Shown here: in pieces, positions 30,939 through 58,706 of the stretch | Layout: every line of letters starts with the position of its first letter | Position numbering within the stretch: the stretch's first letter is position 1 | DNA from: a virus | Length of the DNA stretch: 64,000 nucleotides | Virus record (IMG/VR): IMGVR_UViG_3300007734_000760 | Coordinates: 62,001-126,000 of that record | Strand: one strand, 5' to 3' | Made by a program: the position numbers and the translations under genes | The notes under the pieces: model-generated | Databases searched by the model: none | Told to the model about the DNA's origin: nothing | The model's input: the letters and a program-made list of their open reading frames with translations, nothing else

Positions 30939-31206
30939 TGTATTTAATTTTAAAATTATCTGCTTTTATTTTTAATGCTGTTAATTCTATTTTGTTTTTT
31001 TCTACTTTATCTTTATAAATATTAGTTACTGAATCTAATTTTGTTATTTCATTTTGTTTTAATTTAATATTTAAAAGTAAAGAATCATTTTGTTTATGTA
31101 GTTTATTTAAACTATTTTCTAAATCTGATTTAGGATATTGAAATATAATAATAATAAATAGTATTAATATTAAAATGTATGGCGCTAATATTTTAATTTT
31201 AGCCAC
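30865..31206 (-). CDS. Membrane-anchored coiled-coil protein, i-spanin-like
   Basis: A 113-residue protein starting at a GTG that overlaps the upstream stop (TAGTG). It has one N-terminal membrane segment (APYILILILFIIIIFQY, residues 8-24) followed by an uninterrupted coiled coil (LNKLHKQNDSLLLNIKLKQNEITKLD...). That is the arrangement of inner-membrane spanins such as Rz, and its nested overlap with the next membrane gene supports the idea. Other membrane-anchored coiled-coil proteins would look the same. No endolysin is seen nearby. Confidence 0.6.
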   Translation of the reverse strand: MAKIKILAPYILILILFIIIIFQYPKSDLENSLNKLHKQNDSLLLNIKLKQNEITKLDSVTNIYKDKVEKNKIELTALKIKADNFKIKYNEEHNRINTLSNRNVVNEFTNAFE

Positions 31207-32096
31207 TATTTAATATCAATTATACTAGAAATAATACTTTTTATATCTTCATTTTTATTAATAATCTTTTTATTATTATTAAAAAATTGTTTTAAAGCAG
31301 TCATTTCTTTTTCATATGTTGCATCATCTCCATCTTCATCAGCTTTTTCAATTTTATTCTTTTTCTTTGTTAAAATATCTTTAATTTTATTAAGAGCTTC
31401 TACATCTTTACTAGTATTACTAGGCATCATATCTTTATCTGCTCCAGCGTTAGCAGCAGATATTGCTGCCGCATCCATTTCTTTTTCAATTTCTTCTGGA
31501 CTTTTTTCTGGTTCTAATTCAGGTTCTAATTCAGGTTCAGATTTTTTAGATTCTTCATCATCATCACCATCAAGAAAACTATAATCTGCTTCTTCTGGTT
31601 CTTCAGGAGCATAAGTTTTAGCGTTAGGTTTATTTAAAACATCATTATTAAAAAAATCTGTAAGAATATTACTAACCATAGCTACATCAGTATTTTTTAC
31701 ACCAGTTTCTTTAAGTTTATTCTCTATATTAATTTTAGATATTCCATCTTCTCCTGCTTTTTCAATTAATGATAACATTACATGTTCAACAGTATCAGAA
31801 CTATACAAATCTAACGCTTCTTTAAATTTAGCTTCATTGTTTTTTTTATAAAGATCAGATGGGCGAGCCATTTCTTTAATAGAATTAGCCATTGCTAATT
31901 TTTCTCTAGCAACAACTAAATCTGCTTCAACTTCTTTCTTATCATTAGGATCTTTAACAGTTGGTAATTTAGAACTTAAAGCCGTTATATTTCTATTAGC
32001 ATTATTTGTTTTTATAGTTTTAGCATTTATTTCAGCTGGAGTTAATTCATTTATGATTTGCTCACGAATATATTTATGTAAATCTGTACGTTTCAT
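31206..32096 (-). CDS. Leader-bearing protein with winged-helix-like module
   Basis: A 296-residue acidic protein. The first 17 residues, MKRTDLHKYIREQIINE, form the amphipathic leader ending in I-N-E found on many proteins of this phage. Residues 105-150 (VMLSLIEKAGEDGISKINIENKL...) resemble residues 46-95 of the 136-residue protein at 37006-37416, suggesting a shared winged-helix-like fold. A Glu/Pro-rich repeat (SEPELEPELEPEKSPEE) near residues 188-205 precedes a helical C-terminus. It lies just before the membrane pair and the terminase, so a small-terminase function is possible but unsupported by motifs. Confidence 0.65.
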   Translation of the reverse strand: MKRTDLHKYIREQIINELTPAEINAKTIKTNNANRNITALSSKLPTVKDPNDKKEVEADLVVAREKLAMANSIKEMARPSDLYKKNNEAKFKEALDLYSSDTVEHVMLSLIEKAGEDGISKINIENKLKETGVKNTDVAMVSNILTDFFNNDVLNKPNAKTYAPEEPEEADYSFLDGDDDEESKKSEPELEPELEPEKSPEEIEKEMDAAAISAANAGADKDMMPSNTSKDVEALNKIKDILTKKKNKIEKADEDGDDATYEKEMTALKQFFNNNKKIINKNEDIKSIISSIIDIK

Positions 32097-32119
32097 TAAT
32101 TAGATTTTTGTTATAAATA

Positions 32120-32650
32120 TTATAAATTTAAATAAAATTTTAACTGTCTTAATCTATCCTCCGTAGAACCGGATATAATTCCAAAATTCTTAATTTTACA
32201 TAAATGTTCTGATGTAAGAGATTTAATAGTATAATCAATTTGATTGCGATAATATTCATCAGTAGTGCGTACTTTATTATCTTCTATTGGTACCCCAGCT
32301 GGACTAACATAAAATATCCAATCGTATTCTTGTATAAAATTATTAGCAAAGTATTCAAATTTTAATTTATCACTTTCATTAATAGATTGAGCGTTATTAG
32401 TAAATGCTATTACATCTATAACTGTACGATCTGTAATAATATTATCATTAATTAATTCACTAGCACGTTCAGCTAAGAATATAGTTTGACCTTTTAGTGT
32501 ACTATCTGTATTTAAAGGAATACCTAAATCACGTAAATACTTACTACGTTCAGTAGCAAAAGTATAATCTTTAAATTCAGGTAATTCTTTTAATTTATTT
32601 ACAAGTGTAGTTTTTCCTACGCTTACTGTTCCACAAAATCCTATTTTCAT
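32120..32650 (-). CDS. P-loop NTPase, NadR/AAA_28-like
   Basis: A 176-residue nucleoside-triphosphate-binding protein. Walker A is GTVSVGKTT at residues 7-15. Further marks are FATERSKYLRDLGIP near 32-46, ITDRTVIDVIAFT near 76-88 and DWIFYVSPAGVPIEDNKVR near 114-132, with a Lid-like Arg-rich part. This order matches the AAA_28/NadR-like kinase family found in T4-like phages, which may phosphorylate a nucleoside or cofactor precursor. The substrate cannot be read from sequence. It stands before the leader-bearing gene at 31206 and after a small inverted repeat at about 32672-32689. Confidence 0.8.
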   Translation of the reverse strand: MKIGFCGTVSVGKTTLVNKLKELPEFKDYTFATERSKYLRDLGIPLNTDSTLKGQTIFLAERASELINDNIITDRTVIDVIAFTNNAQSINESDKLKFEYFANNFIQEYDWIFYVSPAGVPIEDNKVRTTDEYYRNQIDYTIKSLTSEHLCKIKNFGIISGSTEDRLRQLKFYLNL

Positions 32651-32699
32651 AACTTAATATAATTTAATATACGAATAAATTTCGTATAAGCCAAGTAAC

Positions 32700-32939
32700 T
32701 TATAATTCTTGTATGTAAATCATAAAATCTTTTATAATTTCTTGTTTTTTAGGTGACGCGTTTAATATAGCTTCTTTAAGAATCATAGACATATCTCTTT
32801 TAGATTCAACTATAAGTTGTTTAAGAGAATTTAAAGTAGACTCAGCTAAAACTAAATCTACTTCTCCTCCATAATAATCTTCTAAATCATTAAGATATAA
32901 AGTAATATATTTATTTAATTTATTTGATGAATCGTTCAT
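32700..32939 (-). CDS. Small hypothetical helical protein
   Basis: A 79-residue helical protein (LNKYITLYLNDLEDYYGGEVDLVLAE). No family recognised. It overlaps the end of the DUF6884-like gene by 20 bases, implying coupled translation, and lies downstream of the MoxR-VWA block. Function unknown. Confidence 0.55.
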   Translation of the reverse strand: MNDSSNKLNKYITLYLNDLEDYYGGEVDLVLAESTLNSLKQLIVESKRDMSMILKEAILNASPKKQEIIKDFMIYIQEL

Positions 32940-33396: not shown

Positions 33397-33407
33397 ATAT
33401 AATGTTT

Positions 33408-34479: not shown

Positions 34480-34481
34480 AA

Positions 34482-37005: not shown

Positions 37006-37416
37006 CTATTTAAAAATATCATCTTCTAAATCCTTTAGACTATCAAAAAAATTATTTTTTGATACTCTTTGTTTAGAAAAAGGTGTAAAAGCATTATTTT
37101 CTCCTCTTCCTCCTTTAGCAATAATTCCAGATTTTATTAAACTGTTAATTTTAGGTCTAAGAACGGTGACATAAGATTGCGCGTTTTTATTTTGAAGTTT
37201 ACTAATATTTTGAATTAAAGCATCAGCAATTTGAATAGAATCTAATCCTTTATCTCCTGCTTTTTCTAAAGCATTAATCATTTCTACTATTTCAGGTGTA
37301 TTAGCATGTAATGTTTTAAGACGTTTAGCTTTTTCTTTATCAGTAATAATTATATTATCACCAAAACGACCTTGTTTAGCTTCAGCAAGAATTTTTTGAA
37401 TAAATTTATTTTCCAT
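37006..37416 (-). CDS. Leader-bearing protein with winged-helix-like module
   Basis: A 136-residue protein. It begins MENKFIQKILAE, a short leader ending in L-A-E12. Residues 46-100 (MINALEKAGDKGLDSIQIADAL...VTVLRPKINSLIKSGIIAKG) resemble a winged helix and align in part with the 296-residue protein at 31206-32096. The Gly/Arg/Asn-rich end may be flexible. DNA binding is possible. It is followed by a terminator-like hairpin. Function unknown. Confidence 0.65.
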   Translation of the reverse strand: MENKFIQKILAEAKQGRFGDNIIITDKEKAKRLKTLHANTPEIVEMINALEKAGDKGLDSIQIADALIQNISKLQNKNAQSYVTVLRPKINSLIKSGIIAKGGRGENNAFTPFSKQRVSKNNFFDSLKDLEDDIFK

Positions 37417-37438: not shown

Positions 37439-38215
37439 TTATAAAAGTAAAGACTCTGCTACATAAATTCCATGTGCTCCACTAACAGTAATACCACGAG
37501 CACTTAAAGCATCTCCTACAAAATGTACATTTGGATAGTCATTTAATGATAAATTATTATAATTTACTAGTGGTTCAGGACTTAAATACTTGACCTCGGG
37601 CATATATACGCCCCAATCATCTCCCATTTCAGGAAATACAATTTGCATTTCTGTAATAAAATCTTCAATATATTGAGCATATTCTTCACCTAATGCTTCA
37701 AATAAAGAATCCATTGTATCTACTTGAATTGCTGATACTGTATTGCCTTCAGATGTTAAAGCTGGTTTACGAGTACGATTAGGTGAATAATAAGTGCCAG
37801 TACCATCAATTTGTAATTTTTTAACTACTTCTCTACTCCATTTAAATGGATCTTCAATACCTTTGATTTCCATTAAAATACCAAAATTAGTCATATCATT
37901 TCTAAATTGTTCACCTTTTTTAGCATGACCATTGTAAGTAACATCACCATATGTTTCTTCAACAGCTACATATGCTGCGTTATTATTTGTACAAAATGAA
38001 CGTAATGATACTTTATCAAATTTCTTATATAATTTAAAATCGTAACTTACATCAATTAATTTCTGGAAATATTTTTGTGGTGCTTCAAAACGGACCCCCA
38101 ATTGCACACTCTTGCTTTCAGTAGGTAAATCATATTTTTGAGCTAATTTAGCTGAGAAATCAATTCCAGCTTTTCCTGTACCTACAATACATTTATCAAA
38201 TTTTATTTTTCTCAT
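37439..38215 (-). CDS. FAD-dependent oxidoreductase, C-terminal half
   Basis: The C-terminal 258 residues of a flavin dehydrogenase of the type often grouped as uncharacterised FAD-dependent dehydrogenases. I take the ATG at 38215 (MRKIKFDKCIVGTGKAGIDFSAK). A TTG start at 38248 would add MVINGNIKTSN, which is out-of-frame translation of the end of the endonuclease gene. The end, NVHFVGDALSARGITVSGAHGIYVAESL, is the second FAD-binding GD motif. The N-terminal half with the Rossmann GxGxxG motif is at 39321-39839. The two parts would join as ...ETGEIILKD / RKIKFDKCIVGTGKAG..., so one gene has been split by an insertion of about 1.1 kb. Confidence 0.85.
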   Translation of the reverse strand: MRKIKFDKCIVGTGKAGIDFSAKLAQKYDLPTESKSVQLGVRFEAPQKYFQKLIDVSYDFKLYKKFDKVSLRSFCTNNNAAYVAVEETYGDVTYNGHAKKGEQFRNDMTNFGILMEIKGIEDPFKWSREVVKKLQIDGTGTYYSPNRTRKPALTSEGNTVSAIQVDTMDSLFEALGEEYAQYIEDFITEMQIVFPEMGDDWGVYMPEVKYLSPEPLVNYNNLSLNDYPNVHFVGDALSARGITVSGAHGIYVAESLLL

Positions 38216-38216
38216 A

Positions 38217-38843
38217 TTACTTGTTTTTATATTTCCATTTATAACCAAATGCTGTTTTTATTTTACCTTTACAAGCTAAATTTATACAACCATTTGTAAT
38301 TTTCTTATTTAAAGATAAGTAAGCTTCTGAAATAGAAGACCATTCTTTAATAAAATTATCTTGTAAATCATATTGAAGAATAGATTTATTCATAACCCCC
38401 ATCATAGATTTACTTTTCTTTTCACAACTCTCCTTACTCATCTTTTTACCTTTATTAGGTGATATATGGCCTTTTAACCCTTCAGATATTTTTCTTTTAG
38501 ATTCTTCAGAGTGTTTCATTCCTGTAGTACCAGCTTTAACACCACATTCTGCTATATTAGCTAATATATAACCTTTATTTCTTAAATCCAATTCTATTTC
38601 TCTTTCTTTTAATAATGCCTCTTCTTCACTTAATCCTTCAAATAATATTTTAGATTCAAATACACCATTATTTTTATTTACAATATTATGCCAGTATTGG
38701 TTTCTACCATATTTTGATTTATCTCGTTTAGGTATTCCTTTTCCAACATAAAATGGTTCATTTATATCAGGTCGTATATGAATATAAACTATAAAATTAT
38801 TGTTTTGTTTTTTTCTCGTGATATTTTTGTTTAAGTTTTTCAT
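38217..38843 (-). CDS. GIY-YIG homing endonuclease
   Basis: I start this at the ATG at 38843 (MKNLNKNITRKKQNN); a longer frame from 38909 would overlap a 47-residue protein-like frame. The GIY-YIG-type N-domain has FIVYIHIRPDINEPFYVGKG. Next come NUMOD3-like repeats (GMKHSEESKRKISEGLKG, then PNKGKKMSKES) and a C-terminal NUMOD1-like unit (ILQYDLQDNFIKEWSSISEA) ending in FGYKWKYKNK. Such mobile enzymes cut DNA near their own site to spread. It lies in the middle of the split oxidoreductase gene, the likely site of its insertion. Whether it is still active cannot be judged. Confidence 0.88.
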   Translation of the reverse strand: MKNLNKNITRKKQNNNFIVYIHIRPDINEPFYVGKGIPKRDKSKYGRNQYWHNIVNKNNGVFESKILFEGLSEEEALLKEREIELDLRNKGYILANIAECGVKAGTTGMKHSEESKRKISEGLKGHISPNKGKKMSKESCEKKSKSMMGVMNKSILQYDLQDNFIKEWSSISEAYLSLNKKITNGCINLACKGKIKTAFGYKWKYKNK

Positions 38844-38940
38844 CGATTTTTTCTTTATTAGACCAGTAATATTTCTTACTATATTCTCGTTGTTTAAGAA
38901 TACGTTCATCTTCTGTTTGGTATTTTTTGATACGTCCCAT
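38797..38940 (-). CDS. Small basic ORF preceding the endonuclease
   Basis: A 47-residue frame, MGRIKKYQTEDERILKQREYSKKYYWSNKEKIDEK..., from an ATG that is four bases after an ATATTTATAAT motif. It overlaps the start of the GIY-YIG gene by 47 bases in another frame. The sequence is Lys/Glu/Tyr-rich and reminds me of the basic N-termini (MGRxKKYxTxEExLxxKRxxxxKYY) of phage HNH/GIY-YIG proteins, so it may be a remnant or an accessory peptide of the mobile element. It is too short for certainty. Confidence 0.5.
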   Translation of the reverse strand: MGRIKKYQTEDERILKQREYSKKYYWSNKEKIDEKLKQKYHEKKTKQ

Positions 38941-38942
38941 CG

Positions 38943-38953
38943 ATTATAAATAT
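38943..38953 (-). promoter_or_regulatory. ATATTTATAAT promoter-like motif
   Basis: Coding-strand motif three bases before the 47-residue ORF that leads into the GIY-YIG gene in the split oxidoreductase, so the mobile insert may carry its own promoter. Confidence 0.45.
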
Positions 38954-38972
38954 TACAGATCTAAGAAAAAAT

Positions 38973-39299
38973 CTAAGAAAGTGCCTCTATTTTTGATTTT
39001 AAACTTTCTAAATTATCAAAAGGTTTTACTTTAGATAAATCCCACCCTAATTCACCTGCAGATTTTGTATCTCCTGTTGAATTCTTCATAATGATATAAT
39101 CATCTAAATCTTCTCCTAATTCATTTTCTAATGAGTATAATACTGATTTTAATCTATCAATAGGTAAAGAAGTATAAATAGGTTCAGTACTTAAATAAAT
39201 ACTATAGTTATTTATATGGCTTGGGTGGGTAAATTTATTTTCACTTAATACTTTATTAATTTCCTCTTTAATAATTTGTTGTAATTCAGATTTTTTCAT
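38973..39299 (-). CDS. Leader-bearing small protein inside the split gene
   Basis: A 108-residue protein. Its first 20 residues, MKKSELQQIIKEEINKVLSE, are a clear example of the amphipathic leader ending in L-S-E that recurs in this phage. The rest (IYTSLPIDRLKSVLYSLENELGED...) is a small acidic domain I do not recognise. It is inserted, with the GIY-YIG gene, between the two halves of the oxidoreductase. A TATTTATAT motif lies in the 21-base gap after the first half. Confidence 0.65.
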   Translation of the reverse strand: MKKSELQQIIKEEINKVLSENKFTHPSHINNYSIYLSTEPIYTSLPIDRLKSVLYSLENELGEDLDDYIIMKNSTGDTKSAGELGWDLSKVKPFDNLESLKSKIEALS

Positions 39300-39320
39300 G
39301 TTTATGTTTTGATATAAATA

Positions 39321-39839
39321 TTAGTCTTTTAATATTATCTCACCAGTTTCAAAATCAATATCAGTAACTTCCGTATTCCAAATGAAGTTAACTCCTTTAT
39401 CAATTAAATATGAATACCAAGCCTTAGCAATCTCATGTAAATAGTTTGAGCCAATGTGCCATACTGGGAATAAACGTAAACCAAAATATGGTTTAATAAA
39501 TTCAGGTTCTTTTTGTGGATCAGAACAGAATATTTCTTCTGGTTTAGGATGAAAACGAGTAAAGTTATCTACTACTTGTTTCATTAATTCCATTGCTTTA
39601 TCTTCACCACAATATTTTGCTAATTGACCTCCAATTTCAGTATGGTAAGTTAATTTACCATCACTCCAACCACCAGCACCTAACATACCTTCCATTACCT
39701 CTTCAGGTTTGCGGTTATATGGATCTTGTCCTTTATCTATGATTGTGATTAGATCTCCAGGATATCCATTATCTACTAATTTAGTAGCAGCGTTAATACC
39801 TGCTACTCCTGCTCCAATAATTACAATTTTTTTATTCAT
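39321..39839 (-). CDS. FAD-dependent oxidoreductase, N-terminal half
   Basis: The first 172 residues of a flavin dehydrogenase. The Rossmann dinucleotide-binding motif is IVIIGAGVAGINAATKLVDNGY (GxGxxG at residues 8-13) with the acidic end of the second strand at IIDKGQDP. MLGAGGWSDGKLTYH, HPKPEEIFCSDP and the WNTEVTDIDFETGEI strand are typical of this dehydrogenase family. The frame stops right after GEIILKD. The rest continues at 38215. The two halves could assemble into a working enzyme, as with other phage genes split by homing endonucleases, or the enzyme may be dead. Confidence 0.85.
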   Translation of the reverse strand: MNKKIVIIGAGVAGINAATKLVDNGYPGDLITIIDKGQDPYNRKPEEVMEGMLGAGGWSDGKLTYHTEIGGQLAKYCGEDKAMELMKQVVDNFTRFHPKPEEIFCSDPQKEPEFIKPYFGLRLFPVWHIGSNYLHEIAKAWYSYLIDKGVNFIWNTEVTDIDFETGEIILKD

Positions 39840-39962: not shown

Positions 39963-40233
39963 TTAATATTTAATTCCTAAAAACTTAGCTAGTTTATCAA
40001 ATTGATCATAATCCATCCAATCAACCCATAATACTATTTCTCCTTTTTTTATTCATTACAAAATTTTTAGGTGTAATAAAATCTTGTAATTCAGGGTTAT
40101 CTAATATAGCATCTTTAGTACTATTATTCATTATGATTTTATCTTCTTGATAATCAAATTCTTGATTTTCATTAATCAAACCCGCCAATTTCTGCATGCG
40201 TTTAAATTCTTCAGATAATAATTGTTTTTTCAT
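39963..40233 (-). pseudogene. Leader-bearing small gene with a frameshift in an A run
   Basis: The frame from the ATG at 40233 (MKKQLLSEEFKRMQKLAGLINENQ) ends with a TGA at 40021 after 70 residues, finishing VMNKKRRNSIMG. If one A is dropped from the seven-A run on the coding strand at 40043-40049, the protein continues as NKKGEIVLWVDWMDYDQFDKLAKFLGIKY and stops at 39963. That tail is protein-like, with an acidic and aromatic pattern, so I think it is the true C-terminus. It may be an indel, a sequencing error or a ribosomal +1/-2 shift. The FKRMQKLAGLINE start is a second form of the leader motif. A terminator follows. Confidence 0.65.
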
Positions 40234-40846: not shown

Positions 40847-41341
40847 TTAAAATTGACCTCTATATTCTTCCATTTTTGTAATCCATGAACTATTAAACAT
40901 ATCACCATTATTGTATAAATAATTATAAAATTTAAAATCATCAGGATCATCATCAGGAAAAGGAAATTTTACTAATCCATTTTCTAATCCAAATTTAAGT
41001 AAAAAAGTATTTGCTACTCTATTGTAGTAATCATTAGTAGGCTCTTTATCTACTAAATCACCTAATTCTTCTGTATGGCCATCATATTCAGCTAAATCAA
41101 AAGCTAGATTATTTGTAAGATCACTATCTAGATTATTTAAAAATTTACTCTCAATAAATATATCGTTACTTAATCTATTTGTCTGATATCCATAAAAGGA
41201 CGATTTGTTTTTTTGAATTCCTATATCATAATCATTTACATAGTCAGCTATTATAGGCTTAACATCATTATACATGTTAGATAGTGATTTAAAAGGCTTA
41301 AACACCTTAATTTCTTTTAATATGTTGATTAGTTTAATCAT
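40847..41341 (-). CDS. Leader-bearing protein, paralogue A
   Basis: A 164-residue acidic protein starting MIKLINILKE followed by IKVFKPF. The first ten residues end in L-K-E, like the ten-residue T4 internal-protein leader. The body (LSNMYNDVKPIIADY..., LAFDLAEYDGHTEELGDLVD, ANTFLLKFGLENGLVKFPF) is closely similar to the next gene upstream (41344-41811), showing recent tandem duplication. No family recognised. It is followed by a rho-independent terminator, so it ends a transcription unit. Confidence 0.7.
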   Translation of the reverse strand: MIKLINILKEIKVFKPFKSLSNMYNDVKPIIADYVNDYDIGIQKNKSSFYGYQTNRLSNDIFIESKFLNNLDSDLTNNLAFDLAEYDGHTEELGDLVDKEPTNDYYNRVANTFLLKFGLENGLVKFPFPDDDPDDFKFYNYLYNNGDMFNSSWITKMEEYRGQF

Positions 41342-41343: not shown

Positions 41344-41811
41344 TTAAAATTGACCTCTATATTTTTCTAATTCTTTAAGATGTAGATTGTTAAGTATGTC
41401 ACCACCATTGTATGTACTACTTAATTCTTCTTCTTCAAATCCAGCATGAAATGGAAATTTTAATACTCCAATTTCTAATGCATATTTAAGTAAAAAAGCA
41501 TTTGCTAACACATTATAATAAATCATTACATTTTCATTATTAGTAAAATCAGTATAATCTCCGGTAAATCCATCGTACTCAGCTAAATCATAAGCTAAGT
41601 TATTGCTTAAGTCTCCATCTTCAAATTCACCTGTAAAATCATAATAATAAACCGGGTGATCACCATTATTATCTATCTCTATATTACCTACTACTTCACA
41701 TATATTCATATATACAGCCATTATAGGTTTTATATCTTCATACATGTTAGATATTGGTCTTAAATGTTTAAACACCTTAATTTCTTTTAATATGTTGATT
41801 AGTTTAATCAT
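41344..41811 (-). CDS. Leader-bearing protein, paralogue B
   Basis: A 155-residue acidic protein, the tandem paralogue of the neighbour at 40847. Shared parts are MIKLINILKEIKVFK, SNMYEDIKPIMAVY, LAYDLAEYDGFTGDYTD, ANAFLLKYALEIGVLKFPF and the ending LEKYRGQF. The middle differs, so the pair has been diverging. Start and stop are two bases from the neighbouring genes. The function is unknown; the leader ending in L-K-E10 makes it a candidate internal head protein. Confidence 0.7.
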   Translation of the reverse strand: MIKLINILKEIKVFKHLRPISNMYEDIKPIMAVYMNICEVVGNIEIDNNGDHPVYYYDFTGEFEDGDLSNNLAYDLAEYDGFTGDYTDFTNNENVMIYYNVLANAFLLKYALEIGVLKFPFHAGFEEEELSSTYNGGDILNNLHLKELEKYRGQF

Positions 41812-45639: not shown

Positions 45640-48302
45640 TATTTTTTTAATTTAAACCATTCTTTTAATGATTCTTTAACAAATTCTGAAAGTGTATCAT
45701 TTGGTTTATTTGATGATTGTATATCTTTAATATCATATACTCTATTATACTTATCTCCACTATTAGCAAAATCAATTGAAGCAAGCTTATTGTCTTTTTT
45801 TAATTGGGGTAAATTATATTTATCTTTTATAACTTTACCTTGTTCATCCATTAACACCCAAACATCATAGTTGTCATTTGATTGAGGTAAAAATACATAT
45901 TTTTGACTTCCATCTTTAATAACAAAAGGTAAAGCATATAATAAATTTTCATATTTTAAATTTTGATTATATCTTTCAACTAATTCAATAATTGAACGTC
46001 TTTCTAATGTTGATAAATCGCTCCAATATTTTTGATCTATAGCTCTAGGATAAACACCTTGTGTTGGCATAATAGATTTTAATTCTAATTCTTCATCACT
46101 CATATTAGTTGATGAAGTAAGCTGCCATGGACCATATAATTTTGAATATATATCAAATAATTGTTTTAATTTAGGATTATCAATGTATTTTTCAGGTCCT
46201 TTTTCTGGCAAATAGTCTAAATTTTGTATTTGATCATTTACATACTTTTTAGTTGTTTCTTTTCCAAAATATTTTTCAATGTATTCAAAGGTTAAAAACT
46301 CTTGATATTTTGATAAAATTATTTGTTTTGCGTTTTCATCTAAATATTTAATATAAGGTAAAGGAAGTAATTTATCAGTATTATTCTCAGCATTATTTTC
46401 AGCATTACCACCCTGTCTAAAATTAACTATAGCATATCGTTTTGCTAAAGATTCATATTGTTTTAAAATAAAGTAAGGAAAAGTTTGACCATTATTTATA
46501 GCTTCATTAGCTAAAGTTGTTGGTTTACCATATTCATCTACTGTTTTATATTTAGGTAAAATTTCTAATATATCATTAGTTAAACCTTGTTTTTGAGATT
46601 TACCTTTAACATAATCTACTTTTTCATCATTAGTTAATTCTTTAAATTCAGTTAAACTTAAATTTTTACCTGATGCTAATTTTCTAAGGCGTTCAGATTT
46701 TGATAATTCTATTGGTTTAAAATAATCTTTTAAATTTTTAATTTTTCCCCATATATCTGCTGGTATTTTATTAGATATGTCTTCCCAACTTTTAGCTGTA
46801 ACATCTGAAGGGTTATCAGCATTGGTTATTTGATATGTTTTACCATCTGATTCTATTCTTATTACAAAAGCATGCCATACATCTTTAAAGGGTTTATGGT
46901 CTGGGGTAGAGGGTCTATTTCTATCAAATATAAAATAAAATGTAGGCGCAACTTCTCTAAATCTATAACTATCATACATGTTACCTCCTCCAGCTTGAGT
47001 TACACACCATGCATATTTTTGCCGACTAGTAGAAGCTACTTTAGGATTATATGAAATACATTTATGCATATCATCTCCTTTATATATTTCTATTCCGTCT
47101 TTATCATATATTTTATCAGCATCTGTAGACACATTATTTATCTCTCCAGAAATTTCTTTTTTAGAAGGAAATAAAGCGTCTAACATTTGTTCTAAAGGAT
47201 GAAATTCCCAATTGCGTGGATCTAAATATAAATTATTTCTTAATAAATTTTTAGGAATAAGTTTTTCTACATCTTCTTTAGTATATAATTCATCATCAGT
47301 ACCATCTATAAGAGCACCTTTTAAATTATTTCTATTAGATATAAAACGAGCAACATATGATTGAGCTAGATCTTTACCTATTTGTTCTTTTTCAACAAAT
47401 TTTTTAACTGCTTCTTTTTTTATGTTTTCTGTATTTTCAGGTAATGATTTAATTAACTTAATCATATCATCAAATGAGTATTTATATATATTAAGATAAT
47501 TTTGTCCTTGTCTTAAAGTATCAGATAAAACTACTATGTTTAATTTTTGAGTTAATGAAGCTTTAGCTTTTTCAAAATCAGCAATTTGTTTTTTAAGATA
47601 TTCATCATGTTTTTTCTGAGTTGCCTCTGTTGGAAATTCTGTTGCCCATTCTGGATGTTCATTTTTCCAACGTGTTATAGTATCATTAATTACTTTTTCA
47701 GCGTATTCTTTAATTAATATTTTAGATTCATCGATATCTTCATCATCGTTATCTTCATCATCGTTAATATTTTCAGATTTTTTAACTGCTTCAATAGCAT
47801 ACTTAACACAATAATTAATTATTTGATCAAATTTTACACTCTTATCTCCCCAATATAAAGGCATTGGAATTCTTTTATAGTGTGCTACCGCTGCCCAAAA
47901 TGCTTGTTTAGCAGCATTACCTGCCGCCGCCTCAGCAGATGAAAAGCCCCATCCTAGATGATCAGGATCATAATCATCATCATCATAATCACTACGTCCA
48001 TAATCTTTATATCTTAAAAGATTAGTGATAGTGGCAGAATCTGTTGGATTAGCTAAATATGCTTTAGCAGTTTCTATTGCGTTATGAGGAGTTTCACTAT
48101 GTGTTCCTGGGTGGTATTTTTCAAAAATATGTAAAACCCTCTCAGCGCATTGAATTGCTAAAGACAGTTTTTCTTTATCATCTTTAGATGCTTCTATTCT
48201 AGATTTAAGAGATTGAAGTATAGGAAGTTGTGAAGGTTTAAATACTTTAATTTCATTAAGTATCTCTTTTTTAATTATATTTATTAATTCTGATTTTTTC
48301 AT
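45639..48302 (-). CDS. Large leader-bearing protein with Imm5-like module
   Basis: An 887-residue protein. Leader: MKKSELINIIKKEILNE (L-N-E17), then IKVFKPSQLP. Residues 25-190 are an Imm5-like helical, Ala-rich module (KLSLAIQCAERVLHIFEKYHP, HNAIETAKAYLANP, AEAAAGNAAKQAFWAAVAHY), similar to modules at 48306-50222 and 54031-55476. A charged linker follows. The middle (near residues 430-480) has KYAWCVTQAGGGNMYDSYRF and TFYFIFD, and ITNADNPSDVT, a pattern seen in large marine phage proteins of unknown role. The C-terminal third is helical, ending in LSEFVKESLKEWFK. No active site is certain. Confidence 0.7.
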   Translation of the reverse strand: MKKSELINIIKKEILNEIKVFKPSQLPILQSLKSRIEASKDDKEKLSLAIQCAERVLHIFEKYHPGTHSETPHNAIETAKAYLANPTDSATITNLLRYKDYGRSDYDDDDYDPDHLGWGFSSAEAAAGNAAKQAFWAAVAHYKRIPMPLYWGDKSVKFDQIINYCVKYAIEAVKKSENINDDEDNDDEDIDESKILIKEYAEKVINDTITRWKNEHPEWATEFPTEATQKKHDEYLKKQIADFEKAKASLTQKLNIVVLSDTLRQGQNYLNIYKYSFDDMIKLIKSLPENTENIKKEAVKKFVEKEQIGKDLAQSYVARFISNRNNLKGALIDGTDDELYTKEDVEKLIPKNLLRNNLYLDPRNWEFHPLEQMLDALFPSKKEISGEINNVSTDADKIYDKDGIEIYKGDDMHKCISYNPKVASTSRQKYAWCVTQAGGGNMYDSYRFREVAPTFYFIFDRNRPSTPDHKPFKDVWHAFVIRIESDGKTYQITNADNPSDVTAKSWEDISNKIPADIWGKIKNLKDYFKPIELSKSERLRKLASGKNLSLTEFKELTNDEKVDYVKGKSQKQGLTNDILEILPKYKTVDEYGKPTTLANEAINNGQTFPYFILKQYESLAKRYAIVNFRQGGNAENNAENNTDKLLPLPYIKYLDENAKQIILSKYQEFLTFEYIEKYFGKETTKKYVNDQIQNLDYLPEKGPEKYIDNPKLKQLFDIYSKLYGPWQLTSSTNMSDEELELKSIMPTQGVYPRAIDQKYWSDLSTLERRSIIELVERYNQNLKYENLLYALPFVIKDGSQKYVFLPQSNDNYDVWVLMDEQGKVIKDKYNLPQLKKDNKLASIDFANSGDKYNRVYDIKDIQSSNKPNDTLSEFVKESLKEWFKLKK

Positions 48303-52319: not shown

Positions 52320-52799
52320 TTAAACATTAGATTGTTGTCCACCACCTAACATAATTTTATTTAAAAATTGAATCGTGTTACGAATTTGAGTTATTAATTT
52401 TTCATCATTAGATTTTAATGCTGAGTCATATGCTGACATTAAGTGACTATGAATATCTTTTTGTTCTGGGGTAATACTTTGGGGTGAAGCCATTGTGTCA
52501 CTTGTAGTAGGATTTTGAGGTATATCTAATGATGTATCTGCTGGTGGAGAAGTTTCGTCTGGTTTAGTTGGTACTTCAGGTATTTCCGCTTCTGGATCTT
52601 GAGGCATCACGTCTTTAGCTTTTTTCTTTTTAGCTTCATCTAAATCAAGTTCATCGATTTGAGGTGAATTATATTCATTTAAAATTATTTCTCTAATTTT
52701 TTCTTTCATTTGAGATTTAGTCATTTTATCTCCTATTGACTCTTTGATAAGTACTTTACCAAACGCCAACTTTTGCATATTTTCAAATTGATTATTCAT
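52320..52799 (-). CDS. Leader-bearing Pro/Asp-rich protein
   Basis: A 159-residue protein. It begins MNNQFENMQKLAFGKVLIKE (I-K-E20, the MQKLA form of the leader) and goes on to MTKSQMKEKIREIILNE (L-N-E42, the common form), so two leader types occur in a row. A long Pro/Asp/Thr-rich, probably disordered stretch (residues 60-110) leads to a C-terminal helical pair (DIHSHLMSAYDSALKSND). An ATATTTATAAT motif lies at 52809-52819. Function unknown. Confidence 0.65.
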   Translation of the reverse strand: MNNQFENMQKLAFGKVLIKESIGDKMTKSQMKEKIREIILNEYNSPQIDELDLDEAKKKKAKDVMPQDPEAEIPEVPTKPDETSPPADTSLDIPQNPTTSDTMASPQSITPEQKDIHSHLMSAYDSALKSNDEKLITQIRNTIQFLNKIMLGGGQQSNV

Positions 52800-53465: not shown

Positions 53466-54031
53466 TTTTTTAAATTTTGTAAGTATTTGATTGTTTCTTC
53501 TTTATTTTCTAATAACTTATTTTTAGTTAAACCAACCCAACGTTCTATATCACCAGCTTCAGTAATAAATGAATCATTAGAACTATTTATAACTTCATCC
53601 ATCCATATACTATAGTCTTTAATAGTATTATCTATATCTGAATTTATAATATTTTTTTCATATTCTTCCCACAACCCCAGTTTACGTAAATCTGTTTCAA
53701 AATCAATTTGACAATTAAAACATCTATTATATTGAATGTAAAATTGCTTGTCAAATTTATTTTTCATTAAATTAGAACAACAAGGACAAAATAATGGTAA
53801 TACTATTGAACGTTTTGCTTTATCTAATTTAGTTAAATTTTGTTTAATACCATTTTTAATAGTCCATGTACGATCATCTTCTTCCCATACATCTCCTTCT
53901 TCATGAAATTGTTTTTGTTTATCATAACCTATACTAGTGATAGTTTTATCACCATGTTTACCTTGAACTAAATTGCGAAGGCGTTGTATATCGTGTTGTT
54001 TAAAATCTTTTTTTAAAACTGATTCTTTCAT
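53462..54031 (-). CDS. Zinc-ribbon phage protein
   Basis: A 189-residue protein with two cysteine pairs, CPCC near residues 82-85 and CFNC at 104-107, making a likely zinc ribbon. Before it lie DIQRLRNLVQGKHGDKT, then YDKQKQFHEEGDVWEEDDRTWTIKNGIKQ, a stretch conserved in T4-like phages as I recall. The C-terminal half is helical (SIWMDEVINSSNDSFITEAGDIERWVG). Nucleic-acid binding is likely. It is coupled with the metallopeptidase-domain gene upstream and the GAF gene downstream. Confidence 0.75.
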   Translation of the reverse strand: MKESVLKKDFKQHDIQRLRNLVQGKHGDKTITSIGYDKQKQFHEEGDVWEEDDRTWTIKNGIKQNLTKLDKAKRSIVLPLFCPCCSNLMKNKFDKQFYIQYNRCFNCQIDFETDLRKLGLWEEYEKNIINSDIDNTIKDYSIWMDEVINSSNDSFITEAGDIERWVGLTKNKLLENKEETIKYLQNLKK

Positions 54032-55476
54032 TATAACTTAGGTTGTTTTTTTAATGTATAATCTTCATTAGTTAAAATTTCTTCTTTTTTAAGATTACTT
54101 AATATTTTATTTAAATTAGCGGTATCAGATAATGGAAATCTAATTGTAGTAGAATTAATTATATCTGGATGTAGTTCTGGTCTTGATCCAGTTTCTTTAT
54201 TTTGAGTAGCATAAAAATCTTTTACTAAATTATAATTTTTAGTAGTCTTTTTTAAAAATATAAATATTATTTTATTTTTATCATCACGTGTTTCATCAAA
54301 ATCAAGTGGACTAAGAGTTACTCCTTTTTCTCTTCCAAAACTAGCTAACTTTTTATATAGTTCACGACCATTTTCTTGATATGTTTTAATATTAGTAGCG
54401 TTTGAAACTGTAGGTTCGCCAAATATTGTTTTTTCAAAGTTTTTATAATTTTCACTTTTATTAGTAAACGCACCAACAAAATATTTTGGATCCATTAATT
54501 TACTTTTTAACTCTTCAGCGTTAATATTATCAGTTAAAATTTCAAGTTCCCACTCGTTTTCTGTACTAGTATTACTAAATGTAGGTTCTTCATTTTCATT
54601 TATATTATTTTTAATTTTATCTTCCCAATTTCTAAGACATATATTACCTTTTAAATATGCTTCTTTTTCTAGTTCTTCTAATTCATCTCCTTCATTAGTA
54701 TTAGTAGTATGAATATTTTGTAATCTACCTTCATTATCTTGTATACGATGAATCATTTCATGAGCATATGAGCGTAATATATCTTTTGGGAGACGATTCA
54801 TTGTATATAATGTAATTGAACAATCATTTGGATCATAATGTGCTGTTTTACCTAAAATATTAGATGCGTTTTTAGAATCGTTGTTTATTAATTTTAATTT
54901 AGGTAAAGGTTTAATGTCCATACCTTTATTAATCATATACTTAGTTAATGATTTTATTGCTTCTTTTAAATTAATAGGAATATTTGATTTCATTTCATTA
55001 ATTGGTTCATTAATGTTGTAGTATAGTTTAACTGCTTTAATAGCATATTCAGCAGCATAAGCACCAGCAGCAGCAGCATAAGCAGCATCAGCAGCAGCAT
55101 AAGCAGCATCAGCAGCATAACCATAAGCAATATTGCCAGCGGCATTTATAATAAACGTTTTAGCGGCATAAAAAGCGGCATTTATATTTTCTTTTGTTAG
55201 GTCAGCTAAACACGCTTTAGCAGCCTCTATTGCTTTACGAGGACGATTATCGTTTGGATATTTTTCTTCAAAAATATGTAAAACTATTTCAGCACATTGA
55301 ATTGCTAAAGATAGTTTTTCTTTAGCATCTCGAGATGCTAATATTCTAGATTGAAGAGATAAGAGTTGAGGAAGTGGTGAAGGTTTAAATACTTTGATTT
55401 CGTTAATATATTTTAATGAAGATATCATTTTATCTTTAAGTAATTCTTCTGTTAAGATATTTATTAAATTTTTCAT
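54031..55476 (-). CDS. Leader-bearing protein with Imm5-like module and metallopeptidase motif
   Basis: A 481-residue protein. The leader region is MKNLINILTE (L-T-E10) and continues to KYINE26, after which comes IKVFKPSPLPQLLSLQSR. Residues 45-155 are the Imm5-like module: KLSLAIQCAEIVLHIFEEKYP, RPRKAIEAAKACLADL and the alanine-rich GYAADAAYAAADAAYAAAAG. Next, near 232-255, comes LRSYAHEMIHRIQDNEGRL with HEMIH at 239-243, a zinc metallopeptidase-type motif. The final third is a separate domain of unknown kind. A hairpin terminator-like element precedes it. It might act on host proteins if injected; unproven. Confidence 0.7.
   Translation of the reverse strand: MKNLINILTEELLKDKMISSLKYINEIKVFKPSPLPQLLSLQSRILASRDAKEKLSLAIQCAEIVLHIFEEKYPNDNRPRKAIEAAKACLADLTKENINAAFYAAKTFIINAAGNIAYGYAADAAYAAADAAYAAAAGAYAAEYAIKAVKLYYNINEPINEMKSNIPINLKEAIKSLTKYMINKGMDIKPLPKLKLINNDSKNASNILGKTAHYDPNDCSITLYTMNRLPKDILRSYAHEMIHRIQDNEGRLQNIHTTNTNEGDELEELEKEAYLKGNICLRNWEDKIKNNINENEEPTFSNTSTENEWELEILTDNINAEELKSKLMDPKYFVGAFTNKSENYKNFEKTIFGEPTVSNATNIKTYQENGRELYKKLASFGREKGVTLSPLDFDETRDDKNKIIFIFLKKTTKNYNLVKDFYATQNKETGSRPELHPDIINSTTIRFPLSDTANLNKILSNLKKEEILTNEDYTLKKQPKL
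55060..55135 (-). repeat. Alanine-coding triplet repeat tract
   Basis: An interrupted run of plus-strand AGC triplets, with ATA and ATC units mixed in, encoding the AADAAYAAADAAYAAAA stretch of the Imm5-like module. Slippage would change length in steps of three and keep the frame. Confidence 0.7.
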
Positions 55477-55485
55477 GTTTAATTG

Positions 55486-55510: not shown

Positions 55511-55539
55511 CCTTATAAATATTAAAAGTATACGAAAAT

Positions 55540-56328
55540 TTATGATTTTAGTTTAACTGTTGTAGGAAATTTATTAAACGATGGTTCATTATGAGTATTT
55601 TCTAATTTATATATATCATATATTTTAGTAAATAAACTCCAGTTTTCTTCAAGTGGACGTGGGGAAGTTGATATTTCCCATCCTTTACCTTGAATGTTAG
55701 TACCTTTTTTATCTGGTCCACGTTTAGATGATTTTAACCATATTACACCAGTATTTTTTATTTTAGATTCATGATTTTCATTCCAACAGGTAGTGTAAGC
55801 TGCTAACTGTAAATCATATGATGTGTGTAAACTGTTTGATGTTTTAATGTCTAATATCCATAATTCATCTTTTAATTTAACAACTAAGTCACAAGTGCCA
55901 GCTATTTTGTGTTCATGTGAAAACAAATGAATTTCACTTTCAATAAGTTCTGGTTTTTCTGTTTCCCAAAATTCAACAAATTTAAGCAACATTTGCCAAA
56001 CATGTAATGAATAAAGAGCATTACCTTTATCATCTAACCAATCAAGTTTTTCACCTGTTAAGTATCTTTCAATTAAACTATGAGTTTGAGTACCATCATC
56101 TGCTGATTTTTTAGCTATGAATTCAGCATTGTGTCCTACATCTTTTAACCAATTTTCAAAAAATTTACCTTTAGGAAAGTACTGTAAAATACTTGTTACT
56201 GAGGGATAATACAAATCTCCATGTTTATAAAATCTATTATCTAAAAAATTAATTTGATTACTTTTACTATCTACTTCAAGTAATCGTTTGATACCTTTAC
56301 TATGTATCGAGTTTCCTTTTTCTATCAT
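55540..56328 (-). CDS. RecB/Cas4-like PD-(D/E)XK exonuclease
   Basis: A 262-residue nuclease-type protein. The PD-(D/E)XK core is visible: GTQTHSLIERYL (His83), KIAGTCDLVVKL (Asp147), LWILDIKTSN (Asp160, Lys162) and YDLQLAAYTTCW (QLAAY, 174-178). This His-...-GxxD-...-DxK-...-QxxxY order is that of RecB/Cas4-family nucleases. In phages it is often a recombination or replication nuclease. The start overlaps the primase stop (ATGA), so both act in the replication block. A promoter-like TTATAAATATT lies after the stop. Confidence 0.88.
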   Translation of the reverse strand: MIEKGNSIHSKGIKRLLEVDSKSNQINFLDNRFYKHGDLYYPSVTSILQYFPKGKFFENWLKDVGHNAEFIAKKSADDGTQTHSLIERYLTGEKLDWLDDKGNALYSLHVWQMLLKFVEFWETEKPELIESEIHLFSHEHKIAGTCDLVVKLKDELWILDIKTSNSLHTSYDLQLAAYTTCWNENHESKIKNTGVIWLKSSKRGPDKKGTNIQGKGWEISTSPRPLEENWSLFTKIYDIYKLENTHNEPSFNKFPTTVKLKS

Positions 56329-57278
56329 ATTGTTTTTAATTTATTCTCAATTAAGTTTGAGAAGGTTAGTGGTAATGTTTTTTGAATAAGATTAGTAAAT
56401 TTTTCAAATCCCATATCAGAAGGATCTTTTTCATTTATGTCTACTAAATAAACTTCTTTACCCTCATTCATTAGTGTTTCACAAAAGTTTAAAGCTTGTT
56501 TAATAGCATCCTTGTCTAAAGCTATGTATATTTTTTCAACTGATGAGTTAATGATTTTTTTCATTAATTCAGGTTGAATGTTTTTACCTAATAAAGGAAT
56601 AGCATTACGTTTAATAGCTATAGCATCAAATATACCTTCACATAAAACAAGAGGTACATTCCAATTTATAAATAATTCTAATCCAATTATGTCTCTTGAC
56701 ACATCTGGATTTTTATATTTTATTTTAGAATTTTTATTAAAACTGCGTGATGTAAAGTAATTTAAATTACCGTTTGAATCATATGATGGTAATATAATCA
56801 TATTAGAATAAACGCCAAATTCACAGTATCCTATATTATATTTAAGTATATCGATTTTATTAATACCTCGTTTATTTAAATAATGTATGGCTTGTTTAGC
56901 GGTAAGATTACTTGGTGGATTTAATAAAGATATAAATTCTATAGGTAAAGATACTCTTTTAAGTGTTGTTTCTTGGCGATTATCTTTAGGTGATGATTTA
57001 ATTAAAAATCTTAATTCATTTACTTTATCTGAATCAGCCTCTATTTTTTTAAATAATGTAGTTAGTTTTTTACCTCTAAATTGATCACAAACCCAACAAT
57101 GGTATGATTGAAAGTTAGAAGAAATCTCATCTAAATTAATTTCTAATTTTAGTTTAGTAGGATGACATCCTTTAGGACAAAAAAATGCTCTGTTACCTTT
57201 AGAAGTAGATTTAGATTTTCCTAATACCGATTCTAATAAATAAATTAGAGCACTATTTGTGTTTCCATTTATAACCAT
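56325..57278 (-). CDS. DnaG-type DNA primase, T4 gp61-like
   Basis: A 317-residue primase. A zinc-binding N-domain shows C34, C38-H39, C61 and C64 (FFCPKGCHP, then YHCWVCDQF). The TOPRIM core has LVLCEGIFDAIAIK (Glu215) and IYIALDKDA (Asp256, Asp258). The length is near T4 gp61 (342). It primes lagging-strand synthesis with a helicase, which lies outside this window. The ATG and the following codons (MVINGN) lie inside the last 26 bases of the homing endonuclease gene, so the start was probably recruited when the element arrived. The true N-terminus may once have been different. Confidence 0.88.
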   Translation of the reverse strand: MVINGNTNSALIYLLESVLGKSKSTSKGNRAFFCPKGCHPTKLKLEINLDEISSNFQSYHCWVCDQFRGKKLTTLFKKIEADSDKVNELRFLIKSSPKDNRQETTLKRVSLPIEFISLLNPPSNLTAKQAIHYLNKRGINKIDILKYNIGYCEFGVYSNMIILPSYDSNGNLNYFTSRSFNKNSKIKYKNPDVSRDIIGLELFINWNVPLVLCEGIFDAIAIKRNAIPLLGKNIQPELMKKIINSSVEKIYIALDKDAIKQALNFCETLMNEGKEVYLVDINEKDPSDMGFEKFTNLIQKTLPLTFSNLIENKLKTI

Positions 57279-57888
57279 AAGCTGTTTTTTGTTTTTTTAA
57301 GCAACAATCTGCTATGTTTCTACTAGTTCTTTTTTTATCCGTTCTGGTATTCTCTTCAGCTTCAGAAGCAGTAATCCATTCTTTTATAAAATTTTCTTGT
57401 AAATCATATTGTAAAACAGGTTTACCTTTAGTATTTTTAGTATTCTCAGAAATTTTTCTTTTCCAATTTTCAGAAATTTTTCTTCCTATTAATGATTTAC
57501 TTATGTTTGTTTTCCAATTTTTAGTTAATATTCTTTCACTTTTATGGATTTCAGAAATTAATTTTTTAGTATTTTCTTTCATCGGTTTAGATAAACCTGT
57601 ATGTGTTTTACTTATTAATTTTTTAGTTTTAATACTGTGATGTGTAACACCCCCACCCCCACTATTTTTATTTTCTAATTTAAAATTCCAACTTTTAAAT
57701 AAACTTATATAATGTTTTTCCCAAAATTTCCAATCTTTAGTTAAAACTATATCTAATAAAACTATATTTACTCCGTTTTGAAATTTATGATGATTAGATA
57801 ATCTTTGTCTTAAAGAACATGATGTTTTTCCTATATAAAACGGAATATTATCTTTTTCTAAAAAATATATTTTAGTTAAAACATCCAT
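57253..57888 (-). CDS. GIY-YIG homing endonuclease
   Basis: A 211-residue mobile endonuclease. The GIY-YIG domain: IYFLEKDNIPFYIGKTSCSLRQRLSNH (residues 7-33), then WKFWEKHYISLF. Next come NUMOD3-like repeats (TKKLISKTHTGLSKP, GRKISENWKRKISE) and a NUMOD1-like unit (VLQYDLQENFIKEWITASEA) that ends in YGYKWKHK. The C-terminal unit and the last codons are almost the same as in the enzyme at 38217, although the middle differs. It sits directly upstream of the primase gene and overlaps its start. Confidence 0.9.
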   Translation of the reverse strand: MDVLTKIYFLEKDNIPFYIGKTSCSLRQRLSNHHKFQNGVNIVLLDIVLTKDWKFWEKHYISLFKSWNFKLENKNSGGGGVTHHSIKTKKLISKTHTGLSKPMKENTKKLISEIHKSERILTKNWKTNISKSLIGRKISENWKRKISENTKNTKGKPVLQYDLQENFIKEWITASEAEENTRTDKKRTSRNIADCCLKKQKTAYGYKWKHK

Positions 57889-57924
57889 ATAATTAATATA
57901 AATAAAAATTTTAAATAAGCCTAA

Positions 57925-58359
57925 TTAAAAATCTCTTCTATGAAATTTTGCTAGAATATTATCGTTATAACTGTCAATGAACAATACATCTTCTTTAACT
58001 TGATGCATTACCTCATAATATGTTAATTGTTTTTTTGTTTTGCAGATTGTTAAGATTTCTCTTTTAAATTTATCTTCACCTAATGATTTAACATCGTTTA
58101 AAAGAGGTTTACAACTACCCCAATATGTTAACCAATTTGATTCAGATATAATTAATTTTGTAGATGGTGTTCTACCACGTTGTGTTGGTAAAGCAGCAAT
58201 TTCTTTTTTACCTAGTTTTTTATTAATTTTTGATAAAAGTTGTTTTTTACCTATATATGATTTACCATTTACTAAATTAGTAATTCGATAAACATATCCA
58301 AATGTGCCTTCAGGGAAATCTTCTGTTTTTTCTATAACTTTATTTTCGTATAACCACAT
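57925..58359 (-). CDS. GIY-YIG nuclease, conserved T4-like type
   Basis: A 144-residue protein with FGYVYRITNLVNGKSYIGKKQLLS (the GYVY...SYIG core), WLTYWGSCKPLLNDVKSLGEDKFKREIL and YYEVMHQVKEDVL. This compact form is conserved in many T4-like phages and often annotated as SegE-like or as a GIY-YIG endonuclease. Unlike the two homing enzymes it lacks NUMOD repeats and does not interrupt a gene. It may be a resident DNA-processing nuclease. It starts five bases after the stop of the small leader-bearing gene upstream. Confidence 0.85.
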   Translation of the reverse strand: MWLYENKVIEKTEDFPEGTFGYVYRITNLVNGKSYIGKKQLLSKINKKLGKKEIAALPTQRGRTPSTKLIISESNWLTYWGSCKPLLNDVKSLGEDKFKREILTICKTKKQLTYYEVMHQVKEDVLFIDSYNDNILAKFHRRDF

Positions 58360-58364
58360 TTTAT

Positions 58365-58706
58365 TTATTTATTTTTAATTAACAACTCACCTAACACTTC
58401 TAATCTACCCATTTCAGTTTGAAATTCATTTTGAGTCATATTTAATGATATGCTTTTTAAAGTTTTATCAAATTCTTTTTTAGCATCATCTAGATTTAAT
58501 TTACCAGCTGCTGCTTTTTTATAATATGGTAATTTAACTTTATAGTGTTTATAAGTTAATAAAGATAAACCGCCTGCTTTTTGAGTGGTATCAGCTATTT
58601 TTTCAGCACCTTTACCTCGAGTTTCTGCAAACTCTTCAAGTGCTTTTTCTGTAGGGATATTCTTTTCTTTAAGAGCCTCACTTAATATGTTAATCAGTTT
58701 TATCAT
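58365..58706 (-). CDS. Leader-bearing small protein
   Basis: A 113-residue basic helical protein. The first ten residues, MIKLINILSE, are the short leader ending in L-S-E, almost identical to those at 40847 and 41344. The remainder (ALKEKNIPTEKALEEFAETRGKGAEKIADTTQKAGG) has a Lys/Ala/Glu-rich helical pattern. No family recognised. It shares one base with the stop of the virion protein upstream (TAATG). Confidence 0.65.
   Translation of the reverse strand: MIKLINILSEALKEKNIPTEKALEEFAETRGKGAEKIADTTQKAGGLSLLTYKHYKVKLPYYKKAAAGKLNLDDAKKEFDKTLKSISLNMTQNEFQTEMGRLEVLGELLIKNK

Follow-up and report, generated by a model that had tools for sequence, protein, structure and literature searches.

Putative capsid-targeting leaders, one class of which resembles the C-terminus of the scaffold protein, on the cargo genes of a T4-type phage contig

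The DNA treated here, called the window, is a stretch of 64,000 nucleotides and represents bases 62001-126000 of the 159,934-base IMG/VR virus record IMGVR_UViG_3300007734_000760. A T4-type head module is located on its minus strand, together with fifteen genes for which an initial annotation had proposed a common N-terminal leader ending in (I/L)-x-E, the signature of proteins that are targeted into the T4 head and cut there. All fifteen are present, and all of them on the minus strand. The 27 kb range given for them does hold these fifteen genes, but the search through the rest of the genome that had been suggested yielded four more leader genes elsewhere on the contig, which results in a total of about 19 (15 in the window and 4 outside). 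By its proteins the contig comes from a phage of the T4 type that has Flavobacterium phage immuto as a relative. Among isolates, immuto has the nearest capsid protein (56%), followed by Microcystis phage Mel-JY01 (49%) and Rhodothermus phage RM378 (36%), and no phage record gave a megablast match to 24 kb of the sequence. The head module contains the following genes; a slash after Glu marks a predicted cut.

28969-30567, minus strand, terminase
27092-28957, minus strand, portal
25694-26215, minus strand, head-module gene between the protease region and the portal, leader-like N-terminus MKNKSSLKDLVYKRLKE/M, in homologues MSLRDKIKEIVKKHLKE/T
22636-23238, minus strand, gp21-type prohead protease (phrog_207, 6e-57), aligned to T4 gp21
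21108-22490, minus strand, scaffold protein, assigned by its position in the protease-capsid interval, C-terminus KPIIE/NDAFARMRELAFGKK, matched by class B leaders
19408-21066, minus strand, major capsid protein (phrog_138, 7e-69), predicted cut VVE59/S60

The putative cargo genes are listed below with their leaders. Bits are scores of profile hidden Markov models (HMMs), and T4 register refers to a position rule explained further on.

31206-32096, minus strand, long leader MKRTDLHKYIREQIINE/L, relatives-only HMM 24.2 bits, cluster 0 with 102 members
37006-37416, minus strand, MENKFIQKILAE/A, the weakest of the fifteen, motif only, below the HMM and register thresholds
38973-39299, minus strand, long leader MKKSELQQIIKEEINKVLSE/N, relatives-only HMM 29.9 bits
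40021-40233, minus strand, 70 amino acids, scaffold-type leader MKKQLLSEEFKRMQKLAGLINE/N, class B HMM
40847-41341, minus strand, 10-residue leader MIKLINILKE/IKVFKP, 15.5 bits, T4 register
41344-41811, minus strand, paralogue of 40847, MIKLINILKE/IKVFKH, 15.6 bits, T4 register
41814-42386, minus strand, MIKLTNLLKE/I, 14.8 bits, T4 register
42390-43406, minus strand, long leader MNNQNLIQLIRESIQNYISE/I, 17.8 bits
44776-45135, minus strand, MKINKLKQIIKEELRAILAE/K, then a Pro/Lys-rich linker, 18.1 bits
45271-45639, minus strand, MEKLKKIIREELRKILRE/D, 10.8 bits, T4 register
45639-48302, minus strand, large gene (887 amino acids), MKKSELINIIKKEILNE/IKVFKP, then a weak Imm5-like stretch, 15.3 bits
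48306-50222, minus strand, MERINKLIRE/L, internal LSE/IKVFKP and LKE/IKVFKP, T4 register
52320-52799, minus strand, tandem leaders, scaffold-type FENMQKLAFG followed by long MTKSQMKEKIREIILNE/Y
54031-55476, minus strand, MKNLINILTE/E and a second site YINE/IKVFKP, 8.4 bits, T4 register
58365-58706, minus strand, MIKLINILSE/A, relatives-only HMM 16.2 bits, four-helix domain
Outside the window, N-termini read across the whole contig (G000:C1 10363, 11321, 54053 and 140239): L002:10363 MKKSELKELVKEQLFKALLE, L002:11321 MKKLELRQLIREEVKKVLKE, L004:14053 MIKLVNLLKE and L006:14440 MKINELRILIKEIIAEE

Two of these entries were corrected. The gene formerly listed as 39963 is the open reading frame (ORF) 40021-40233, and the residues down to 39963 belong to another frame. 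This ORF ends at a TGA, and after an A-rich run the neighbouring frame continues as WVDWMDYDQFDKLAKFLGIKY to 39963; the region 39963-40040 thus reads as a frameshift, natural or an assembly error. The start of 44776 was moved from an upstream TTG to the ATG at 45135.

A single leader type had been assumed initially. The similarity itself exceeds chance for 14 of the 15 leaders, the exception being 37006, but judged from their sequences the leaders are of three kinds, not one. Class A-long (MKKSELQQIIKEEINKVLSE type, 17-20 amino acids) comprises 31206, 38973, 42390, 44776, 45271, 45639 and the second leader of 52320. Class A-short (MIKLINILKE type, exactly 10 amino acids) is found in 40847, 41344, 41814, 48306, 54031 and 58365. 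Class B (MKKQLLSEEFKRMQKLAGLINE type, core MQKLAG) occurs in 40021, at the N-terminus of 52320 and as an internal copy in 42390, where the tag MQKLAGIITE lies near residues 228-243 (class B HMM, 27.6 bits).

For the phage's own proteome, HMMs were trained on relatives alone, with its own genome excluded, and the best score of 20 whole-proteome shuffles served as the bar. With these models the window leaders took the first ranks in the proteome. Six window genes of the long class (38973, 31206, 44776, 42390, 45639, 52320) and four of the short class (58365, 41344, 40847, 41814) exceeded it, in addition to L002:10363, L002:11321 and L006:14440 with the long and L004:14053 with the short model. 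All these matches begin at residue 1 except the second leader of 52320, a protein that reached 14.0 bits in this test, 27.4 bits with class B and 20.2 bits with A1. The leaders below the bar are, apart from 37006, backed by the register test or the class B HMM. Comparison with related phages, also proposed at the outset, gave N-terminal matches far above shuffles: HMMs of the window leaders matched 57 (A-long), 21 (A-short) and 13 (B) of 951 proteins encoded near protease homologues, against 1.0, 1.7 and 0.7 after shuffling, in statistics that span several overlapping locus sets, whose counts are therefore not independent of one another. Almost no matches fall in residues 61-105 of these proteins, the matches being restricted to N-termini. 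A crAss-like locus set (914 proteins) gave 1, 2 and 0 matches, and in 1,032 crAss-like proteins the leader HMMs yield background only. A BLAST search of isolate phages with a 20-residue long leader found nothing, which is unsurprising with a query of this length.

In T4 IPIII targeting depends on positions 4 and 7 and cutting on positions 8 and 10, and ten residues are enough (PMC9026906). A register rule derived from this T4 mutagenesis, hydrophobic residues at 4, 7 and 8 and Glu at 10, is followed by the short class. In a 49-kb stretch of T4 (61-110 kb) the rule selects only IPII, IPIII and the vertex protein gp24, all of which are known substrates of gp21. On the contig itself it selects 8 of 226 proteins, all of them leader genes (shuffled 0.8), and in related T4-like loci 133 of 3,270 (shuffled 9.2, maximum 19); crAss-like controls remain at the level of chance with 3 of 1,003 against 2.8. 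For the long class the proposed ending was borne out as well, since (I/L/V)xE follows the leader core within 8 residues in 133 of 166 non-redundant cases, whereas shuffled residues give 53 (maximum 69) and the rate elsewhere in these proteins is 20%.

The encoded gp21 homologue and its capsid site, both named in the initial annotation, were recovered. The catalytic His (GELDHP) and Ser (SSRG) of the protease are in place on the alignment to T4 gp21. Capsid VVE59/S60 aligns with E65/A66 of T4 gp23 and E10/S11 of gp24, and the cut-site Glu is kept in every capsid protein aligned. Relatives that keep the leaders without a gp21-type protease had been named as a possible refutation; the protease is present in 6 of 6 long terminase contigs tested and in 3 of 4 cargo contigs above 100 kb, and it was found in none of 7 crAss-like genomes. 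The fourth cargo contig (G022) was dismissed as a leader phage without protease: its capsid gene is also missing, and therefore the head module may simply be absent from this fragment.

The third class was followed with an HMM built from 29 N-terminal cargo leaders alone and run on 3,419 proteins. Of its matches 45 were N-terminal, 33 C-terminal and 9 internal, with none in 1,032 crAss-like proteins and none in shuffles. The C-terminal matches mostly resemble the protein encoded in the protease-capsid interval, for example one ending in KPIIEVNNQFARWQKLAGIK, and a few are other proteins with the same C-terminal tag. This interval protein has no family match and is identified as the scaffold by position and tail. 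Its own end is KPIIENDAFARMRELAFGKK, that of immuto EVSEQVSRWQKLAGIIK and that of Mel-JY01 NESNNVVERMKKLAGIVK, and the RM378 gene upstream of the capsid gene ends in DLERIKRLAGL. The class B consensus F.RMQKLAGIITE matches the scaffold C-terminus beyond chance, and the class B leader can be read as a copy of it. Therefore class B cargo probably sits where the scaffold tail would otherwise be, either in the core or on the shell protein. The motif (I/L/V/M)xE stands directly before the C-terminal tag in 67 of 76 cases and trails the tag in N-terminal cargo leaders; a cut there would release the protein from the tag in both arrangements. Among 50,697 isolate records the scaffold-type leader was found in immuto only. 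The predicted cuts in leader proteins of immuto are MRLLELLRE/AKEA in gp082, LAGIITE/SQFN in gp083, EILSE/KKAD in gp084, LAGIITE/SEMW in gp230, MIKLIDLLTE/SLFP in gp231 and MISIYNILKE/VISP in the gene at 103366.

These data bear on the proposal that the leaders are amphipathic helices with a role outside the head, in membranes, tail or baseplate attachment or oligomerisation, and that the terminal Glu is a by-product of helix composition. Such a role is conceivable for a small, conserved gene of the baseplate operon which carries a similar leader-like helix (LKKLIKEAVKEAIQEELKEILLEA; L006:6874-7230, immuto 81525, G001:145033, G002:64132, G003:15696, G004:49998); this gene either encodes an ejected protein or indicates that the helix is not head-specific. 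As a general account the proposal is very unlikely, because shuffles that preserve composition match about ten times fewer proteins or less, the leaders are lacking in crAss-like phages, one class matches the C-terminus of the scaffold, and the register is that of the T4 capsid tags.

The proteins behind the leaders are as diverse as initially described. They fall into about 100 unrelated clusters, 67 of them singletons, and about 90 families remain after exclusion of seven clusters that are not cargo. The terminase belongs to the rejected candidates: its N-terminus merely scores as A-long (cluster 1), which accounts for about 84 long-class matches across all sets. It is unlikely that the leader proteins belong to the prohead core or scaffold, are brought there by the leader to serve assembly and are degraded or lost at maturation instead of being delivered. 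In favour of this explanation, leaders are also found on head-module genes (homologues of 25694-26215 score as class A, cluster 9), the 31206 family (cluster 0) adjoins the terminase in most relatives, and several proteins possess internal (I/L)xE sites or further tags. However, some 90 unrelated families, mostly patchy in distribution or singletons and with enzyme folds among them, are unlike conserved assembly parts.

The exchange of leaders is best seen in 58365 (113 residues), which has 42 relatives in viral contigs and, among isolates, in immuto only. A bacterial origin of its domain was rejected, as no relative was found in bacterial genomes. In the main clade the leaders vary (MIKLLQLLTE, MIKLLDILKE, MRLLELLRE) and all end at Glu, with the conserved domain starting within a few residues of it in most members. 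In other contigs the same domain follows different leaders which also end in Glu (FKQYVVNE/A, KIYTTSIFE/A, GFSLITE/K, MMIIQE/A), and throughout the family every predicted Glu precedes the conserved domain. On the contigs of this second clade, MNLQRFNEFILE/A and MSKIIKSYPEFLAE/N are examples of leaders on neighbouring genes that are comparable to MKTYQEFIAE/A of T4 IPIII; 10 of 146 N-termini there are of this type, and 1.06 after shuffling. Since the domain stands behind clade-specific leaders, the label appears to follow the phage clade while the cargo is exchanged. In the AlphaFold2 model of 58365 (predicted local distance difference test score 85) a confident four-helix domain, for which no structural match was found in the PDB, stands apart from the leader helix and from a linker of low confidence. 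One member of the family, gp082 of NC_055915 (112261-112575), is annotated as tRNA(Ile2) C34 agmatinyltransferase; by its sequence this annotation looks wrong.

A recurrent part of the pattern is the junction E/IKVFKP (or IKVFKH), which is observed in five genes between 40847 and 55476 of the window, always after (I/L)xE. It is joined to a long leader in 45639, to short leaders in 40847 and to other upstream sequence in 54031, and occurs twice inside 48306; none was seen in relatives. An Imm5-like domain follows IKVFKP in 45639, 48306 and 54031, with 32.5 bits for Imm5 in 48306 and 36.2 for Imm5_like in 54031 (Pfam cut-off 25 in both cases), the latter followed by the metallopeptidase-like motif AHEMIHR. 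The joining of long and short leaders to one junction within a genome, and the leader DNA common to 40847 and 41344, might be taken for a mere footprint of recombination, a functionless mobile 5' gene segment copied between genes. This is hardly credible, as the leader DNA otherwise differs with the protein pattern kept, and the pattern is conserved over many different phage contigs.

Pfam matches in leader proteins include zeta-type kinases in three proteins (E 3e-14 to 4e-11), Tox-ART-HYD1 in one (2e-5) and, just above the cut-off, a nucleotidyltransferase domain in a protein of Mel-JY01. By their sequences these domains are of a type expected for host takeover. Nucleotidyltransferase-like proteins with leaders were also noted at L013:11243-13162 (MGKLINILLSE) and L112:11153-13111 (MNQLTKHLIGELLE), and make NAD-related or nucleotide enzymes candidates for packaged cargo. 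L004:14053 and the immuto gene at 103366 match nothing in Pfam, and their kinase fold is a reading by eye only. At G003 4062-5670 (L107) six small tandem genes, each with its own leader of the MKKSELRKIIKEEI type and with unrelated bodies, resemble a cargo array. Within the window, FAD/NAD-dependent oxidoreductase-like halves (39321-39839 and 37439-38215) are split by a GIY-YIG-like endonuclease ORF (38217-38909) and leader gene 38973, and the arrangement at 37439-39839 suggests a homing element that was inserted together with a cargo gene. A second GIY-YIG-like ORF (57253-57888) overlaps the start of a primase-like gene (56325-57278).

Copies of ATATTTATAA cluster directly ahead of genes, many tail genes among them. 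The sequence lies at most 45 bases from the start in 8 of 19 leader genes compared with 20 of 207 others (p = 0.0006), and is found upstream of many structural and leader genes contig-wide, for example at 2018, 6383, 11377, 31206 and 52320 of the window. It is a candidate late promoter, and its position before leader genes is consistent with their late expression.

The T4 proteins IPI, IPII, IPIII and Alt carry capsid targeting sequences (Mullaney and Black 1996, as reviewed in PMC9026906), and Alt is an ADP-ribosyltransferase delivered from the head (PMC9026906). As in the T4 internal proteins, the short class is an N-terminal propeptide of 10 residues with hydrophobic positions 4, 7 and 8 and Glu 10, a gp21-type protease with its catalytic residues is encoded, the cargo is unrelated in sequence, and one cargo family matches an ADP-ribosyltransferase model as Alt does. 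The propeptide of T4 gp24, MAKINELLRE, agrees with MIKLINILKE in length, register and cleavage motif, but gp24 is a shell protein and not cargo. In contrast to T4, about 19 genes per genome instead of 4 bear leaders, three tag classes exist, and the system is known from sequence alone. Among the Pfam and PHROG matches no homology of the mature proteins to IPI, IPII, IPIII or Alt was found, and they are not assigned to those families. The giant phages SPN3US and phiKZ also have ejection proteins with propeptides (PMC10052503, PMC5694885). There, too, a prohead protease frees internal proteins by cutting after Glu, but the propeptides mostly have 111-254 residues, the motif is AxE and a counterpart of the T4 scaffold is not confirmed. 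In engineered P22 shells cargo is loaded by fusion to the scaffolding protein. Cargo would likewise enter here by carrying a scaffold element, but the tag occurs in nature, stands at the N-terminus and has a maturation site behind it. Capsid targeting with release by a protease is of a kind already described for T4. What looks new here is that so many genes are tagged, that the tags fall into three classes, one of them derived from the scaffold, and that some of the cargo may consist of polyproteins. In the open-licence literature no paper was found on capsid targeting sequences studied with metagenomes, nor any on Mel-JY01, and a prior description is possible.

Taken together, the leaders are very probably removable address tags for the interior of the head. 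The T4-like evidence, combined with a class B leader that copies the scaffold C-terminus, leads us to propose that the capsid is targeted in part through mimicry of the scaffold and that the protease then releases the cargo. The comparative evidence fits the T4-style reading of the initial annotation wherever it can be tested, and from it we infer that the proteins are packaged, cleaved and injected, and also where the scaffold-like tag binds. Tagged proteins would be made together with the head proteins, and the tag would draw them into the prohead core. The short class (10 residues, hydrophobic 4, 7 and 8, Glu 10) would act as the IPIII/gp24 type, the long class (MKKSELKQIIREEIKKVLSE) as an extended amphipathic version, and class B (F.RMQKLAGI) would probably take the place of the scaffold tail. 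The gp21-type protease would then cut after the (I/L/V)-x-E that ends the tag, and the freed cargo would share the mature head with the DNA and most likely enter the next host, like Alt and IPI of T4.

Several observations weigh against this interpretation. The long class departs from the T4 position rule, and the scaffold-type class likewise lacks the T4 register. The long-class helix is not fully specific, because the baseplate-operon gene (L006:6874) and, weakly, the terminase carry similar N-terminal helices. Some leader-like N-termini (51083 and its cluster) have no clear (I/L)xE, and 37006, backed by its motif without statistical support, fits the leader classes only loosely. Above Pfam's own cut-offs only one ADP-ribosyltransferase and three zeta-kinase matches are found, the other ADP-ribosyltransferase-like, kinase-like, methyltransferase-like and metallopeptidase-like leader proteins being assigned by eye or by weak matches. 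Virion proteomics was found for none of these phages.

A wider proposal seems reasonably likely: the scaffold C-terminus would be a natural cargo-loading tag that has been copied to either end or into the interior of unrelated proteins, and the protease site would lie on the cargo side for shedding. Genes 48306, 42390 and 52320 would then encode polyproteins with internal tags and sites, and the head protease would load and cut an exchangeable host-takeover set.

Protease and terminase queries each have at least 600 matches in the viral collection. If the address-tag interpretation holds, the sequence would directly reveal which proteins are delivered by the virions of a very common group of aquatic phages. 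A leader scan would flag many uncharacterised proteins, some of them zeta-kinases or ADP-ribosyltransferases, as candidates acting in the first moments of infection. Furthermore, there would be a simple, testable answer to the question of how T4-type heads select their cargo: some of the cargo borrows the tail of the scaffold.

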